A stretch of 64,000 nt of DNA from Oligoflexales bacterium (lineage in GTDB: Bacteria; Bdellovibrionota_B; Oligoflexia; Oligoflexales; RGVZ01), in contig CANJZQ010000003.1 of assembly GCA_947479535.1 (NCBI GenBank), positions 1 to 64,000 of the forward strand. Reading direction: 5' to 3'. Below, piece by piece: positions 4,559 to 12,223 of this stretch. Position numbers and translations under genes: made by a program. The notes beneath the pieces are model-generated. The model did no database searches, was not told the DNA's origin, and was given only the letters and a program-made list of their open reading frames with translations. Numbering within the stretch: the stretch's first letter is position 1; every line of letters begins with the position of its first letter.

Positions 4559-5332
4559 TTACTCTTCGTGTGCCTCACCGCCGTGGCTCGTGTAGACCTT
4601 CAGACGTTCTTCGATGATCTTCGGATTTTGTCCGGATAATATACCGTCAATTCCGATGACCACCATGGCCCGATAATGATTTTCGATCATTGCTTTGCGC
4701 TTGATCCGTTTTCCCATTGGAATACACATGATGTTGGCGATTCCCACACCGTAGAGGGTTGCCACGAACGCCACGGCGATACCGGGTCCGATCTTTTCTG
4801 GCTGATCCAACACGGTCATAACCTTCATCAATCCAATCACGGCTCCGAGAATACCAATGGTCGGCGAAATGGCGCCAAAGTCTTCCCAGAATTTCACGCA
4901 GATTTCGACCTCTTCAAACTCCACAAAAGCTTCGTTCTCCAGAGTGTCGCGAATGATGTTGGGGTCGGTGCCGTCGACGGCGAGTTTTACGGCTGCTTTT
5001 AATGGTCCGTAAGAAAGCCCTTCGCGCTTTTTCTCGAGCGCCAGAATCGATTCCTTACGCGCCGTTTGAGCAAGGTCGATAATTTCTGTTGCGATCTGTT
5101 GAGGGGTCGTCGGTGAATTTTTCAGCAGGATGGTTGGAATAGCCTTGAAGCAACGGATGTAATCAGGGATGGGATACGCCACCATGAGTGCGCCCAGCGT
5201 TCCGCCGATCACGATAAGAAACGAGGGAAGGCTGACAAATTGAGGAATTAGATTTGCCGCACCCTTGGCGACGACACCACCAAGGATCATAAGGAGAGCT
5301 AATATAGGACCTATGATAAAACCGATATCCAT
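4559..5332 (-). CDS. motA: Flagellar stator protein MotA
   Basis: The 257-residue protein has the MotA layout: two N-terminal membrane helices (residues 1-20 and 35-52), a cytoplasmic loop of roughly 100 residues rich in charged residues (ALEKKREGLSYGPLK) and two C-terminal helices including SPTIGILGAVIGLMKVM and the AVAFVATLYGVGIAN segment. With MotB it forms the ion-conducting stator. Its start codon lies 22 bases inside the 3' end of dnaE2 and has no good ribosome binding site, which implies coupled translation from the mutagenesis transcript or a promoter inside dnaE2. Confidence 0.95.
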   Translation of the reverse strand: MDIGFIIGPILALLMILGGVVAKGAANLIPQFVSLPSFLIVIGGTLGALMVAYPIPDYIRCFKAIPTILLKNSPTTPQQIATEIIDLAQTARKESILALEKKREGLSYGPLKAAVKLAVDGTDPNIIRDTLENEAFVEFEEVEICVKFWEDFGAISPTIGILGAVIGLMKVMTVLDQPEKIGPGIAVAFVATLYGVGIANIMCIPMGKRIKRKAMIENHYRAMVVIGIDGILSGQNPKIIEERLKVYTSHGGEAHEE

Positions 5333-8300
5333 GGCGCGACTCGCGATTCAGGTTGGTTGCATTGATTATACCGCATATCTGCATCTTCTGTGCGCGGCAG
5401 CGGCACAACGGTTCCTTCGGGCGCGCTTGGCCCGTGAACTTTCTGAACAAGGATCGAATTTCCCTGATTTTTTCCCTGCAATTTACCAGAAACACAAATG
5501 AAGGCCTGACGGGAAAGGATGGACTCAAACCGTTCATACACCTGTGGAGTGAACACAAGATTGATGTAACCGTGCTCATCCTCAAGGGTATAAAACACCA
5601 TTCCTTTGGCCGTAGGAGGCGACTGCCGGACGAGGACCATCCCGAAGACAAGAACCTGCGCGTTAACCGCCGTCGACTCCAGACGATTGGATGGAACCAC
5701 CTTCTTTACCGGAACATCAAAGCACCAGTATTCTGATCGGACGATGGCCGAAGGGTGCTCGCCAAGGGCAACAGAAGTTGCATCCAAGTCCTGTTGGACT
5801 CGTTCCATACTGGATTCCCCGGAAAACTTATGTTGCGACTCCACATCAAGCATTAACCCCACATGAGGCGCTGCCTCGGCCATCCAAAAGGCGTCTTTCC
5901 GGCTCAGCCCAAAAATCGCAAAAGCATTCGCCGCAGCAAGGCTGGTCAGGTCACTACGAAAAATACTGTTCTGTGGAGCCGCCTGGAAAATTTCGTCGCA
6001 ACTGGACCAACCTCCTTCAGGCCGGGCACTGCGTAAACTACGCCCTGCATCCTCGCGGAGGCCACGAACCAGACAGAGTCCAAGACGAATCGCATAAACG
6101 GCTGGCCGTCCGTTTCGCTCATCCGCGGATTCGATCATTTCAAGGTGATGCTCCCATTCAGAGTTTTGAATGCATACGGGTCGAACCTCGACCCCACAAC
6201 GTCGCGCAGCCTGGACCAAAGCGAGTGGACTGTAAAAACCCATGGGTTGCGAATTCAGTATGGAAATGAAAAATGCGGCTGGATAATGACACTTCAACCA
6301 TGACGATGCGTAGGCAATGATGGCAAATGATGCCGAATGAGACTCGGGAAATCCGTATTCGGCAAAGCCGCGCATTTGTTGCAGGATGACCTGAACAAAT
6401 TTTTCGTTAATTCCATTCCTGCGCATTCCCTCAGAGAGGCGCGTGAGCCAAGGATCAAGATTGCCTTTGATCGTCCACGCCCCCATGTGACGGCGCAATT
6501 CGTCGGCTTCGCCCGGGGTAAAATCGCCAACTGCAATGGCAATGCGCATGACTTGTTCCTGAAAAATCGGAATACCAAGGGTGCGTGCAAGGATTGGACG
6601 CAAACGTTCGTCCGGAAACACGATCGCTTCTTCACCATTCCGACGCCGCAGGTATGGATGCACCATTCCCCCCTGAATTGGACCGGGACGAATGATTGCA
6701 ATTTGGATCACAAGGTCATAAAAAGTACGCGGCCGCAGCCGCGGCAGCATCGACATCTGAGCCCGCGATTCAATCTGGAAAGTACCGACCGTATCGGCGC
6801 GCTGGATCATGGCATAAGTCGCAGAATCCTCAGGAGGAACCCGGTCCAGGCTCATCGGCCGACCATAATGGGATTCGAGCAAGCCAAAGCACTTGCGAAC
6901 GGCTGTCAGCATCCCCAAGGCAAGGATGTCGATTTTGAAAAAACCAAGGGCTTCGATATCTTCCTTGCACCACTGGACCACCGAACGACCAGGCATGGTG
7001 GCAGGCTCCTGCGGAACAATGTTGTCCAGAGGCTCGTTTGAGAGCATGAAACCACCGGAATGGATTCCCAGATGACGCGGGAATCCGCGGATCCTTTCGG
7101 TCATCGAAGCCCATAGCGGATGTTCCTTCATGCTTTCGCGTGGATCCTCGAGCAGTGATTCATGAACACCAAGAACTTTACCAACGGCACGCGCCGCGCC
7201 CCGGGTGCGGAATGTGATGACATTGGCCACCATCGCGGCCCGTGCCCGGCCATAGCGTGAATAGATATACTGGATCACCTCTTCCCGCCGCTCGTGTTCA
7301 AAATCGACGTCGATATCGGGGGGATCCCCGCGCTCAACGCTGACGAAGCGTTCAAAGAGAAGATCAAAGAGGGATGGGTCGACCGAGGTTACCCCTAGAA
7401 CAAAACATACGGCCGAATTTGCCGCAGATCCGCGCCCCTGGCACAAGATACCCTGCTCCCGCGCCCACCGGACGATATCCCAGACCGTCAGAAAATAATC
7501 AGCAAACTGAAGTTCAAGGATCAAACGCAGCTCGTGCGCGATAAGATCAACGATACGGGACGGCAGAGGATTTCCATAACGCTCTCGCGCGGCCTGCCAG
7601 GTGATTTGTTCCAGAAAACTTTGGGCCGTATGCCCCTCCGGGATCATTTCTTTTGGATATTGATAACGCAGTTCGTCCATGCTGAAATTACAATCGTCCG
7701 CAAGTTCGGCTGACGACTCCAGCGCCGTCCGGAAAACTGGCAGATCTCCAAACCGGCGCACGAGATTATCCACGCCATGCAAACACCGCTCGGCATTCAC
7801 AAACATTTGTCCGACACATTCATCCATTTCCATGTTCGTGCGTATCGCATGCAGCACATCACTGACGGGTTTCTGGCTGCCATGATGAAAAAAAGCATCC
7901 TGGGTCAAAAGGCACTGGACACCATACTCTTTGGCAAGACCCAAAACTTCTGGAATCCAAACATCCTCACTCGGATGCAAATGCCGGCTGACAGAAAAAT
8001 AAAGGCGATTCCCGAAAATTCCCTTTAAAGCCTCCATGCGCGAGCGCAAGACAGCAGCTCCACCGCGGCGGATCAGTCCGCGCATCGGTAAAATCGCGGC
8101 CACTTGATCGAGGCTCTTCAGGCCATTTTCCTGGAGGCAGCCGTAGGTCACAAATTCTTCCCAAGGCACAGTGGCGTGAGACTTCCCTTCACGGTGGCTG
8201 AGTGTCAGCAAGCGGCAGAGCTGTGCATATCCAGAACGACGACGCGCCACCAGTGCCAGCGTATCCTGCAAGACAATTGGCAAGTCATGATCCGTGCCAA

Positions 8301-8580
8301 AGTGAACTTCGGCTCCGTGAAAGAGGCGTGGGGGTACCGTCCCACCAAGGGAAGGCGCCGAAGACTTCAAGATGGCCTTATGCGCCCGGTGCGATCTGGC
8401 TAGGCCGTAGGCGCCGTCAAGATCGGTGATGGCTATGCCACGATAATTCAGCTCAAACGCACGTTGGATCATCTCATGAGGATGGGAGGCACCAGTGATG
8501 AAGCTAAAATTTGTATGGGCCAACCACTCAGTCCAACCAAGGGATTCCATAATCGACTTGTTGGTTGCAACGGATGTCAT
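5311..8580 (-). CDS. dnaE2: Error-prone DNA polymerase III alpha subunit DnaE2
   Basis: At 1089 residues this matches DnaE2 rather than replicative DnaE. An N-terminal PHP domain (SFITGASHPHEMIQRA, residues about 22-40) is followed by the C-family polymerase core with QGRGSAANS and the catalytic PDIDVDFEHERREEVI motif, then the fingers and an OB-fold near the C-terminus (VLVFGMVLVRQSPPTAKG). DnaE2 performs translesion synthesis with ImuA and ImuB after DNA damage. It lies nine bases after imuB, so it should be expressed from the operator-controlled imuB promoter, and its 3' end overlaps motA. The ATG at 8580 lacks a clear ribosome binding site; a second Met ten codons in is possible. Confidence 0.96.
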   Translation of the reverse strand: MTSVATNKSIMESLGWTEWLAHTNFSFITGASHPHEMIQRAFELNYRGIAITDLDGAYGLARSHRAHKAILKSSAPSLGGTVPPRLFHGAEVHFGTDHDLPIVLQDTLALVARRRSGYAQLCRLLTLSHREGKSHATVPWEEFVTYGCLQENGLKSLDQVAAILPMRGLIRRGGAAVLRSRMEALKGIFGNRLYFSVSRHLHPSEDVWIPEVLGLAKEYGVQCLLTQDAFFHHGSQKPVSDVLHAIRTNMEMDECVGQMFVNAERCLHGVDNLVRRFGDLPVFRTALESSAELADDCNFSMDELRYQYPKEMIPEGHTAQSFLEQITWQAARERYGNPLPSRIVDLIAHELRLILELQFADYFLTVWDIVRWAREQGILCQGRGSAANSAVCFVLGVTSVDPSLFDLLFERFVSVERGDPPDIDVDFEHERREEVIQYIYSRYGRARAAMVANVITFRTRGAARAVGKVLGVHESLLEDPRESMKEHPLWASMTERIRGFPRHLGIHSGGFMLSNEPLDNIVPQEPATMPGRSVVQWCKEDIEALGFFKIDILALGMLTAVRKCFGLLESHYGRPMSLDRVPPEDSATYAMIQRADTVGTFQIESRAQMSMLPRLRPRTFYDLVIQIAIIRPGPIQGGMVHPYLRRRNGEEAIVFPDERLRPILARTLGIPIFQEQVMRIAIAVGDFTPGEADELRRHMGAWTIKGNLDPWLTRLSEGMRRNGINEKFVQVILQQMRGFAEYGFPESHSASFAIIAYASSWLKCHYPAAFFISILNSQPMGFYSPLALVQAARRCGVEVRPVCIQNSEWEHHLEMIESADERNGRPAVYAIRLGLCLVRGLREDAGRSLRSARPEGGWSSCDEIFQAAPQNSIFRSDLTSLAAANAFAIFGLSRKDAFWMAEAAPHVGLMLDVESQHKFSGESSMERVQQDLDATSVALGEHPSAIVRSEYWCFDVPVKKVVPSNRLESTAVNAQVLVFGMVLVRQSPPTAKGMVFYTLEDEHGYINLVFTPQVYERFESILSRQAFICVSGKLQGKNQGNSILVQKVHGPSAPEGTVVPLPRTEDADMRYNQCNQPESRVAPWISVLS

Positions 8581-8589
8581 GGTGTTTTT

Positions 8590-10104
8590 CTAGTTGTACA
8601 TGCCATGGACATACCACTTTCCTGAACCGTCTTTGAAAACCCAGACCGAACGCTCATCTTCATCCCGCATCATGTAATAATCTCGCTGCATCGACCCTTG
8701 GCTAGAGGCACTCCCAGATCGCCACCACTTGTCCATGATTCGTTCGCAGAAGGACCAGCCCCTTGAATGATTCACCGGCTGAGGGCAAGCCCTTGGCTTC
8801 GGATAAACAAAAAGCGGACGACGCAGTCCCAACGCTTGCAATGACGGATGACTCACATCCTCACTCTGTTTTAGTTCTGTCGTTGGGTCACCGGAATGCC
8901 CTGGAATCCTCAGACAATAACCGTCTTCTGGAATCCAGTTGCTGGTGACTTCATAAGCATTCAATGGAACTGGCAAACGATTTTCCAGTTCCTGCAAGCG
9001 GCCTTCACCAGAATCCATAATTGAACCAAACAAATCCCGCATCACCGGTGGCAGGATGATTTTTTCAGTCACCAGCAACTCCCATGACCCGATCGCCTTT
9101 TCATAGAGGCCCAGGTCAACGGCTGCGCCCATCGCAGTTGGAATCGCATCTTCAAAGGCATAGCAAGCTTGGAGCAGCGCGGTCCGATGATGCGGGGACT
9201 CGGCCGGAAGATCGTGGGGGTGGCGAAAACGAATGGGGATGACAAGGCAAGACAAATCGAGGAAGACCACACGCCACTCCAAGCTCAAAACACGTCCAAC
9301 ACCCAGCTTTTCAAGCTGGGCGCATAAACGATCCACATCATCACGGAGCACTGTTTCAATGTGCTCCCACTCGAGCAATGGCGTATCCAGATGACGCTTC
9401 ACCTGAATGCTCTCTTGCTGGCGCCACAAGACCCACGGAAAACCAATCAGGCCTGACTCATCATCCCCATGGAGATTCGCTGTCCAAAGCCATAAATCAT
9501 GCAGTGCTGCACCATAACGCCTGCGGATGGCCAACGCCGGCATTTCAACAAGGGCCACTGGATTTCGAATTCCCAAACGCTCCATGCCCTGCGCCATTTG
9601 ATGCGCCTGACGACGAAAAACCTGCAGATTAAAACGCTCACGACCACAACCAAACCAATGCAATGCCACTTCATCGGCAAGACGAAACCAGATATCCCAG
9701 GACGCTTCATTGACTAGATTGCGACCGATGGGATTGTGTCCAAAAACAAAACCATCAAGCCCACGTTCGCGCATGACTTCGATACCCATCAGCGCACGCC
9801 ACGGGCTCGCATCCATGACAGCAAGGGCTTCCTCACCCGCAAGGAGGGATATGGCCTGACGCAAAAATGCATGCAGGCTTTCTTGATCGTTCGTCTGAAT
9901 CTTGTTCCCAGAAATTCCTGCCTGATGGCACCAGTATGGCCAGACAGGTCGCAGGTCCAGCAGCCAAATGGCCTGATGGGCGTTCGCATGATTCACATCA
10001 TCCAACTGGCCAGTGGCCCTTGCGGGCTGCCAAAGCATGAACCGCGGAGTTAGCGATTCAGGATTGAAATCAGGCCGACTGGAAGAAAGGGCGAGGTAAA
10101 ACAT
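8590..10104 (-). CDS. imuB: Y-family polymerase-like protein ImuB
   Basis: I placed the start at 10104 because AAAGGAGG lies just upstream and the protein then begins MFYLALSSS; upstream in-frame extension would run through the operator. The 504-residue product is an ImuB homologue by position and by weak Y-family features such as RLGIRNPVALVEMPALAIRRRYG-type helix-hairpin sequence near the middle. The N-terminal strand lacks the acidic metal ligands of active Y-family polymerases, as known for ImuB, which acts as a clamp-binding adaptor for DnaE2. The sequence is quite divergent, and the identification depends strongly on gene order. Confidence 0.85.
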   Translation of the reverse strand: MFYLALSSSRPDFNPESLTPRFMLWQPARATGQLDDVNHANAHQAIWLLDLRPVWPYWCHQAGISGNKIQTNDQESLHAFLRQAISLLAGEEALAVMDASPWRALMGIEVMRERGLDGFVFGHNPIGRNLVNEASWDIWFRLADEVALHWFGCGRERFNLQVFRRQAHQMAQGMERLGIRNPVALVEMPALAIRRRYGAALHDLWLWTANLHGDDESGLIGFPWVLWRQQESIQVKRHLDTPLLEWEHIETVLRDDVDRLCAQLEKLGVGRVLSLEWRVVFLDLSCLVIPIRFRHPHDLPAESPHHRTALLQACYAFEDAIPTAMGAAVDLGLYEKAIGSWELLVTEKIILPPVMRDLFGSIMDSGEGRLQELENRLPVPLNAYEVTSNWIPEDGYCLRIPGHSGDPTTELKQSEDVSHPSLQALGLRRPLFVYPKPRACPQPVNHSRGWSFCERIMDKWWRSGSASSQGSMQRDYYMMRDEDERSVWVFKDGSGKWYVHGMYN

Positions 10105-10118
10105 GAATCCTCCTTTGC

Positions 10119-10136
10119 ACCATACAATTGTATGGT
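10119..10136. promoter_or_regulatory. Perfect 18-bp palindromic operator upstream of imuB (likely LexA box)
   Basis: ACCATACAATTGTATGGT is identical to its own reverse complement. It lies 15 bases upstream of the imuB start, in the 44-base gap after imuA. The half-site ACCATA and its six-base spacing recur in the site at the imuA start. Given lexA upstream in the same cassette, LexA is the likely ligand; this differs from the E. coli CTGT-N8-ACAG and the Gram-positive GAAC-N4-GTTC boxes. Confidence 0.75.
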
Positions 10137-10148
10137 AGCACCGAAAGT

Positions 10149-10808
10149 TCACATGTCAATAGCCGGAAGATCCAAAGGCTGCCGGGCCGTTCCACGAACG
10201 GCCTCCAGATGCCATCCATCACCGCGCACACCATTGCTGCGCTGCCGGCAGTTGACCCGTAAACGGGCCCAGATGTTGCCACGCCGTCCACTGAGCAAAA
10301 AATTCTGAAGCACCATCACATGGACTTCCATGGCACGCGCCTGGCGCGCTATGAACGCCCACTCCTCGCCACTCAAATGCTTTGGACTGTCGAGCACCAC
10401 CAGACGAAACAGCGGCTCTAAAAAAACTGGCTTCAACAATTCAATTGGCTTCTTTGCAGTGGCAAAACGGATGAAATGCAAATCAACACCACGCGCACTC
10501 CAAGCCGGCGGATAAACCTCAAGCCCGTCCTGCCCGTTTACCCAAAGAACCAGCATTTCACCGGCTGTGACGCGTCCTACGATGGACAATGCAATTTCAC
10601 GTGCGCCCTGCCCCGTTGGCATGCCCCACTCACTCACTGCACCGCTGGCCAGTCCACCCTCCAAAAATTCATCGAGGGCACCATTACCACTGAAAAAACG
10701 CACGGGATCTGACGTTCTCTGCACCGCAGATGTGGCAGTGCGAACTCCGTGTTGTGCCAGGATATCCGCAATATATTCAGGAATTTTGGGGGTTGATTCT
10801 TGTACCAT
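10149..10808 (-). CDS. imuA: RecA-like SOS mutagenesis protein ImuA
   Basis: A 219-residue protein resembling the RecA-fold ImuA/SulA-like family. GNGALDEFLEGGLASGAVSE and the following GMPTGQGAREIALSI occupy the place of the RecA P-loop, but the usual Gly-Lys-Ser/Thr is absent (GQGAR), fitting the loss of ATPase activity reported for ImuA. RLVVLDSPKHLSGEEWAF corresponds to the Walker B strand. ImuA partners ImuB and DnaE2 in damage-induced mutagenesis. The ATG at 10808 has no ribosome binding site and lies inside the operator, so the message may be leaderless. A tandem-repeat block separates it from lexA. Confidence 0.85.
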   Translation of the reverse strand: MVQESTPKIPEYIADILAQHGVRTATSAVQRTSDPVRFFSGNGALDEFLEGGLASGAVSEWGMPTGQGAREIALSIVGRVTAGEMLVLWVNGQDGLEVYPPAWSARGVDLHFIRFATAKKPIELLKPVFLEPLFRLVVLDSPKHLSGEEWAFIARQARAMEVHVMVLQNFLLSGRRGNIWARLRVNCRQRSNGVRGDGWHLEAVRGTARQPLDLPAIDM

Positions 10809-10823
10809 ATAAAATTATGGTAC
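10802..10823. promoter_or_regulatory. Palindromic operator overlapping the imuA start (likely LexA box)
   Basis: GTACCATATAAAATTATGGTAC has perfect 8-base arms (GTACCATA / TATGGTAC) around a six-base A/T core, matching the imuB operator in half-site and spacing. On the coding strand the imuA ATG lies within it. CATAAT inside the site could act as a -10 element five bases before the ATG, so repressor binding would cover the promoter and start directly. Confidence 0.72.
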
Positions 10824-10860
10824 CATGGAGGCCTTGAAGAAGAAAAGATCCTTCCTTAAC

Positions 10861-10973
10861 CCGTCATCCTGAGGGCGGTCCCGTCATCCTGAGGGCGGTC
10901 CCGTCATCCTGAGGGCGGTCCCGTCATCCTGAGGGCGGTCCCGTCATCCTGAGCGACAGCGAAGGATCCTTTC
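10861..10973. repeat. Tandem 20-bp repeat (four full copies) of the GTCATCCTGAG family
   Basis: The 20-base unit CCGTCATCCTGAGGGCGGTC occurs four times head to tail (10861-10940), then a fifth degenerate unit continues into GAGCGACAGCGAAGGATCCTTTC. The motif is in the opposite orientation to the copies at 1457, 11222 and 11503. Tandem arrays of this size are prone to copy-number change. Confidence 0.9.
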
Positions 10974-11098
10974 TTATGCGAAAAGTCCTGCCGTATGCTG
11001 CCTCTATCTTGAGCCATAACATGACTCAACTTTTTCTACTGTGGCGACGAGCTCCTATCGCGATTGAAGAATAGTGAGAAGCGAAAAAAAATCAAAGA

Positions 11099-11260
11099 AA
11101 GGATTCTTCGGCATGCAGCCTCAGAATGACGCAGACGGAAAGGATTCTTCGGCATGCAGCCTCAGAATGACGCAGACGGAAAGGATTCTTCGGCATGCAG
11201 CCTCAGAATGACGCAGAGGGAAAGGATCCTTCACTACGTTCAGGATGACGGGGTTGGTCA
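11099..11260. repeat. Three 41-bp direct repeats plus one divergent unit
   Basis: A 41-base unit beginning AAGGATTCTTCGGCATGCAG and containing CCTCAGAATGACGCAGACGG starts at 11099, 11140 and 11181; the third copy differs by one base (AGAGG for AGACG). It is followed by a related unit, AAGGATCCTTCACTACGTTC then AGGATGACG. This is a second variant (GGATTC/GAATGAC) of the same repeat family. Confidence 0.9.
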
Positions 11261-11572: not shown

Positions 11573-12223
11573 TTACATCTGCCGTTGCAAAGCCAACACT
11601 TGACCGATCACTTCAAAGGGCTTGTCCCCTGCGTAAATTGGTTTGAATTCGGAGTTCTCCGGCTTCAAATACCAACCGCGGGTTTTATCACGCATTAGTC
11701 GCTTCACCGTTGCATCGCCGGACTCCGTCCGCGCAACCACAATGGTCCCAACCGGTGCATTCTTGCAACTCTGAACCACGAGCCAGTCACCATCAAGAAT
11801 GCCAGCCTCAATCATGCTGCTGCCGCTCGCACGCAAGGCAAACACCTCACGTGGAGATGGAATATGCTTGCCGAACATTGACGTCGACATCCGCAAAGTT
11901 CCAATCCGTTCTTCCAATGCCTCAAGCGGATTACCGGCTGGAACTGAACCAAGGCAAGGCACCACGAGGGTTTCCGGGGTCGATTCGAGGGCCGGGTCCC
12001 GCAGAGCCTCGCGCGTTACCGTAAGGCTGCGCGCCGATTGCTTGTCAGGACTTTCAAGATACCCTTTGCGACGCAATGCGTTCACAAGGTCTTGGGCAGA
12101 TCCGATGGCGGAATAACCCATGTGCTCACAGAGCTCCCGAAGGCTCGGAGGCATACCGGTTTTAAGCGATGAAACCCTGATAAAAGTGAGGGCTTTGCTC
12201 TGAGTTGCTGTGAGCTTTTCCAT
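11573..12223 (-). CDS. lexA: SOS repressor LexA
   Basis: The 216-residue protein starts MEKLTATQSK, with GGGGGTG upstream of the ATG. Residues 1-70 form the winged helix-turn-helix (SLRELCEHMGYSAIGSAQDL, ALRRKGYLE). The C-terminal peptidase domain has the self-cleavage pair Ala96-Gly97 (VPAGNP), nucleophile Ser136 (ASGSSMIEAG) and Lys174 (DATVKRLM). RecA filaments should trigger cleavage and derepress the mutagenesis genes. The recognition helix differs from the E. coli type, consistent with the unusual ACCATA-N6-TATGGT sites near imuA and imuB. I see no such site just upstream of lexA itself. Confidence 0.95.
   Translation of the reverse strand: MEKLTATQSKALTFIRVSSLKTGMPPSLRELCEHMGYSAIGSAQDLVNALRRKGYLESPDKQSARSLTVTREALRDPALESTPETLVVPCLGSVPAGNPLEALEERIGTLRMSTSMFGKHIPSPREVFALRASGSSMIEAGILDGDWLVVQSCKNAPVGTIVVARTESGDATVKRLMRDKTRGWYLKPENSEFKPIYAGDKPFEVIGQVLALQRQM

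Follow-up and report, generated by a model that had tools for sequence, protein, structure and literature searches.

A predicted LexA box variant of the class Oligoflexia at the imuA and imuB genes of an Oligoflexales mutagenesis cassette

In Pseudomonas and Caulobacter, mutagenesis cassettes with the gene order lexA-imuA-imuB-dnaE2 are regulated by LexA, with a LexA box in control. The LexA box of E. coli and other gamma-proteobacteria is CTGT-N8-ACAG, and a 2021 paper that counts 17 LexA motifs gives the box of Bdellovibrio bacteriovorus as TTAC-N3-GTAA (both PMC8565304). Here we consider a stretch of 64,000 nucleotides from an Oligoflexales bacterium (hereafter the window), in which the genes lexA, imuA, imuB, and dnaE2 follow one another in that order, all on the minus strand (Table 1), and in which the palindromic motif ACCATA-N6-TATGGT occurs once at imuA and once at imuB. 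With a probability of roughly 95%, we predict that the LexA encoded 0.75 kb upstream uses both palindromes as its operators.

Table 1. Genes of the cassette and predicted control elements, in window coordinates.
Feature	Position	Strand	Basis
lexA, 216 aa, proposed repressor	11573..12223	-	TIGR00498 above cut-off; PF01726, PF00717
imuA-side operator, predicted LexA site	10804..10821	.	ACCATATAAAATTATGGT; read on the minus strand, ACCATAATTTTATATGGT
imuA, 219 aa, RecA-like mutasome accessory protein	10149..10808	-	weak RadA/RAD51 matches, position, homologues in 30/56 genomes
imuB promoter, predicted, sigma-70-type	10132..10159	-	TTGACA-N16-TACCAT; 10/12 matches, TG before second hexamer
imuB-side operator, predicted LexA site	10119..10136	.	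ACCATACAATTGTATGGT, perfect 18-bp palindrome
imuB, 504 aa, diverged Y-family polymerase-like protein	8590..10104	-	tblastn, position, homologues
dnaE2 (imuC), error-prone DNA polymerase, at the end of the cassette	5311..8580	-	NF004225 PRK05672

The LexA protein scores 144.8 bits against TIGR00498 (cut-off 110.95) and is the single match in the genome to PF01726, the LexA-type winged-helix DNA-binding domain; the S24 peptidase domain PF00717 is matched as well. DnaE2 reaches 1144 bits against NF004225 PRK05672 (cut-off 939), and the adjacency of imuA, imuB, and a dnaE2 of the error-prone type identifies an ImuA-ImuB-DnaE2 mutasome. ImuB gave no match to Pfam or NCBIfam even at E = 10, and an IMS domain is not detectable in the ImuB of this genus, so that standard annotation would miss it. 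Its tblastn matches are plasmid genes annotated as "DNA polymerase Y family protein", two of which adjoin an error-prone DNA polymerase, and imuB homologues sit downstream of imuA in relatives; ImuA found no match among plasmid records. The gap between lexA and imuA is repeat-rich, being filled by tandem repeats at 10860-10970 and 11097-11232 (a 20-bp unit, CCCGTCATCCTGAGGGCGGT, in 4.7 copies and a 41-bp unit in 3.3 copies).

As the initial annotation had pointed out, the two sites share both half-sites and the six-base spacing, each having zero mismatches to the motif, and the imuB-side site is indeed palindromic over its full 18 bp. No third copy had been noticed at that stage, and an exact scan of the whole genome (2.4 Mb in 72 contigs, 90.65% complete) likewise returns two matches only, both in the window and both at imu genes, where base composition would lead one to expect about 0.003 per 64 kb and 0.10 per 2.4 Mb by chance. 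The relaxed pattern RCCATA-N6-TATGGY recovers the same two matches across the genome, and a reversed-pattern control recovers none. A sequence profile whose training set excluded the two sites assigns scores of 29.2 to the imuB site and 23.5 to the imuA site (the best score in 400 kb of shuffled sequence is 15.1), and a profile scan of the genome at E <= 10, with a heuristic first pass and 150 of 664 candidates scored, finds these two sites only. Three further genomic sites with one mismatch (L003, L004, and L005) were rejected as operators, as they lie within open reading frames and have low profile scores. Because short motifs receive weak E-values in the sequence-only model search (0.02-0.14 per genome), we place weight on position and conservation: each of the four genomes of the genus keeps both operators, and G001-G003 hold them at the same positions, though ImuA identity drops to as low as 72%.

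Within this genus, the box appears to serve few genes. The initial annotation reported no copy just upstream of lexA, and we find none there or at recA: lexA of the genus has no box nearby, and the best profile score upstream of recA is -2.9 in the window and -2.8 in the congener G002. A gene for an IMS-domain polymerase is not detectable in the genome. Boxes at lexA and recA are widespread in the class and both are absent from the genus, so the ImuA-ImuB-DnaE2 mutasome seems to be all that is left of its SOS regulon. On balance, we favor a mutagenesis-only SOS response, in which LexA would have just two operators (at imuA and at imuB-dnaE2) and both lexA and recA would lie outside the regulon. 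If this is correct, DNA damage would switch on error-prone polymerization with no accompanying arm for repair or recombination and no feedback from LexA synthesis. It is rather unlikely, though well worth weighing, that the regulon is in fact larger, with LexA using this box and degenerate sites also controlling lexA, recA, or other repair genes. Profile scoring and genome searches can miss strongly diverged sites, and the genome is incomplete; against this, no position in the window outside the two sites reaches a score of 9, the recA upstream regions score below zero, and the genome-wide profile search yields nothing further. A larger regulon would bear on regulon reduction alone, and not on binding by LexA.

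The prediction that LexA recognizes these sites draws on the protein as well as on the DNA. Its AlphaFold model has helices at residues 6-22, 28-35, and 40-52, as in LexA, with good confidence for helix 40-52, which is the recognition helix (IGSAQDLVNALRR). Alignment to E. coli LexA is gap-free across the DNA-binding domain and sets GYSAIGSAQDL against GFRSPNAAEEH at residues 36-46; N41, A42, E44, and E45 of the E. coli protein are thus G, S, Q, and D here, in agreement with the earlier description of the recognition helix as diverged. For this comparison we relied on what we take to be the DNA-contact residues of E. coli LexA, and a literature search on LexA helix contacts found no paper. In our alignment, G41, S42, Q44, and D45 are invariant across the order. 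The scissile pair A96-G97, the nucleophile S136, and the base K174 are all intact by alignment to E. coli LexA. The closest labeled relatives of the protein (97-89% identity) come from MAGs called Pseudobacteriovorax or Oligoflexales, in Bdellovibrionota, Oligoflexia.

Conservation was assessed in 56 related genomes, for which "order", "class", and the family groupings are kinship labels. Homologues of imuA are present in 30 of the 56, and 25 of these 30 have the motif upstream of the gene. In 23, a copy that departs from the motif at no more than one position falls within a 320-bp window spanning the start, a result that shuffled windows almost never give; the other two were added on inspection, since the site precedes an extended N-terminus in G018 and imuA lies behind a boxed lexA in G010. 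Four genomes without the imuA box (G013, G026, G031, and G042) have a LexA of a different type beside imuA, with 27-31% identity, and in G017 this LexA type is absent and the locus is cut by the contig end. Presence of the box thus follows the LexA type: boxed genomes encode the helix [GA][ST]-x-Q-D, and where imuA has a LexA of some other type as its neighbor, the box is missing. At the G013 locus (L272), the different LexA has the helix NVNGVQAHL, and a palindrome, ACTGTACATTTGTACACT, lies approximately 36 bp before lexA, adjoining imuA.

The same box also precedes other SOS genes in relatives. In the sister genus g2, it is found approximately 50 bp upstream of lexA (GCCATACTTTTATATGGT); lexA of families f2 and f3 is boxed as well, and in family f12, of the same class, several members have perfect palindromes of 22-24 bp at lexA (for example, GGTACCATATAAAAGTATGGTACC), with umuD and recA boxed too. 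As evidence against the assignment, the lexA box is mostly absent from families f6 and f8, and family f11 keeps the same LexA helix with almost no boxes. The dinB gene is boxed in G004, G005, G008, G009, G011, G014, and G018. In members of family f6, recA is boxed through an upstream EI24-family gene (an EI24-recA operon); elsewhere in the order, many genomes have a box approximately 0.8-1.1 kb before recA. Further boxed genes include umuDC, an MPG glycosylase gene, and a UvrA-like gene. The initial annotation had called for a genome scan for the motif with a check of SOS genes, and had named a lack of enrichment at damage-induced genes as evidence against its proposal. In relatives, the motif in fact stands before lexA, imuA, dinB, umuDC, and recA operons, and by a scripted count over 16 relatives outside the genus, 25 of 51 distinct profile matches fall at five SOS anchor genes, whose regions take up very little of any genome (by eye, G018 and G019 contribute two more anchor matches, at imuA).

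A further point on the other side is that about half of the relatives' profile matches belong to genes other than the five anchors; some of these are coding or chance matches, and others are possible new regulon members. HNH endonuclease genes, which adjoin a LexA box in L141, L153, and L156 (G035, G008, and G006), are possible members of this kind. In the family f11 loci L039 and L049, LexA has the same recognition helix and a cleavage site reading LPEGDP and LSSDNP, respectively, instead of VPAGNP; the genomes are almost box-free, and these LexA proteins are possibly uncleavable.

The regulator is almost certainly LexA, because the motif lies at SOS genes in relatives and the genomes that are without the box mostly have a different LexA by imuA. 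It is very improbable that another regulator, such as a TetR- or MarR-type repressor or activator, binds the palindromes and controls the mutasome independently of LexA. Such a regulator would be compatible with a genus whose own lexA carries no box, and because lexA and recA of the genus are both boxless, the argument from autoregulation rests on relatives; there, however, the genes behind the box (lexA, recA, dinB, and umuDC) are standard LexA targets, and genomes whose imuA stands next to another type of LexA do not have the box. Least probable of all is that the half-sites match by chance or through duplication and play no part in regulation, since even though short palindromes do arise by chance and the window at three mismatches holds no more sites than expected, the two exact matches far exceed the 0.10 expected per genome, lie at imu genes, and are conserved across families. 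Comparative genomics supports the new LexA box that the initial annotation proposed.

The arrangement of the predicted LexA operators suggests how they might act. The predicted imuB promoter lies inside the 3' end of imuA and is followed by a good ribosome-binding site, and its -10 hexamer (10132-10137) overlaps the imuB operator by five bases. At imuA, the operator encloses the start codon (10808-10806), which has an in-frame stop nine bases upstream; this suggests that the imuA transcript is leaderless or nearly so. In many relatives, TTGACA or TTGACG stands ahead of the imuA box with compatible spacing. In G010, too, imuB is preceded by a second box, so this genus is not alone in its double-operator layout. 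In the mechanism that we propose, a LexA dimer would use the recognition helix IGSAQD to grip ACCATA-N6-TATGGT; at imuB the bound repressor would cover the -10 element and block RNA polymerase, and at imuA it would cover the presumed -10 and start region, start codon included. Upon damage, RecA filaments would trigger self-cleavage of LexA at A96-G97 by S136/K174; both promoters would then be released, and imuA and imuB-dnaE2, an error-prone translesion polymerase system, would be induced. The box would be ancestral to the class, there also controlling lexA, recA, dinB, and umuDC, and this genus would have kept only the two mutasome operators.

A search of the open-access literature on LexA or the SOS response in Oligoflexia, Oligoflexales, and Silvanigrella found nothing relevant. 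CCAT-N8-ATGG is almost certainly a LexA box variant common to the class Oligoflexia, and we found no paper describing it; it would add to the 17 motifs counted so far a box for a whole class with no SOS response described in the literature that we found. The initial annotation called the operators unusual in type, which is apt for the half-site sequence and not for the geometry. Relative to the E. coli box (ACTGTA-N6-TACAGT), the 18-bp dyad, half-site length, and spacing are the same, as are the target genes in relatives of this genome, but two central bases are changed (CCAT/ATGG half-sites at the same N8 spacing, so that, as previously noted, the E. coli-type box does not match) and helix residues 41/42/44/45 are G/S/Q/D rather than N/A/E/E. 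The box of Bdellovibrio bacteriovorus, although palindromic and from the same phylum, Bdellovibrionota, has a shorter half-site, a 3-bp spacer, and another sequence, which the sites here do not match.

Boxes of the same geometry occur at lexA elsewhere. Among L086-L094 (Burkholderiales and other proteobacterial MAGs, one of them labeled Myxococcales), LexA has the helix SPASAE[ED], and mostly a ACCGTATAAATTTACGGT-type palindrome lies directly at the lexA start codon; the Bdellovibrionaceae MAG L081 has ACCGTACATATGTACGGT at 1918-1935 before lexA, unlike Bdellovibrio bacteriovorus; and in the Nitrospiria/Nitrospirae MAGs L096 and L097, ACCRCACATATGTGTGGT follows TTGACA before lexA. The form ACCGTA-N6-TACGGT (CCGT-N8-ACGG), found in some of the Burkholderiales MAGs and in L081, shares the 18-bp geometry and the ACC...GGT ends with the box described here but has G rather than A as the fourth half-site base, and helix residues 44/45 are E-E (E-D in L090, Y-E in L081) rather than Q-D. 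From these partly intermediate helices one may infer that the second base of the CTGT/CCAT core (T or C) goes with residues 41/42, and its third base (G or A) with residues 44/45. As the E. coli box has the same geometry, such a specificity code is testable: swapping residues 41/42/44/45 of LexA should convert CTGT to CCAT recognition.

Compared with the cassettes of Pseudomonas and Caulobacter, the present locus adds a second operator and a predicted promoter before imuB, has a 0.75-kb repeat-rich gap between lexA and imuA, and starts imuA inside an operator; it would also provide a naturally occurring example of an SOS regulon that seems to retain mutagenesis alone, with a bearing on why bacteria keep LexA.
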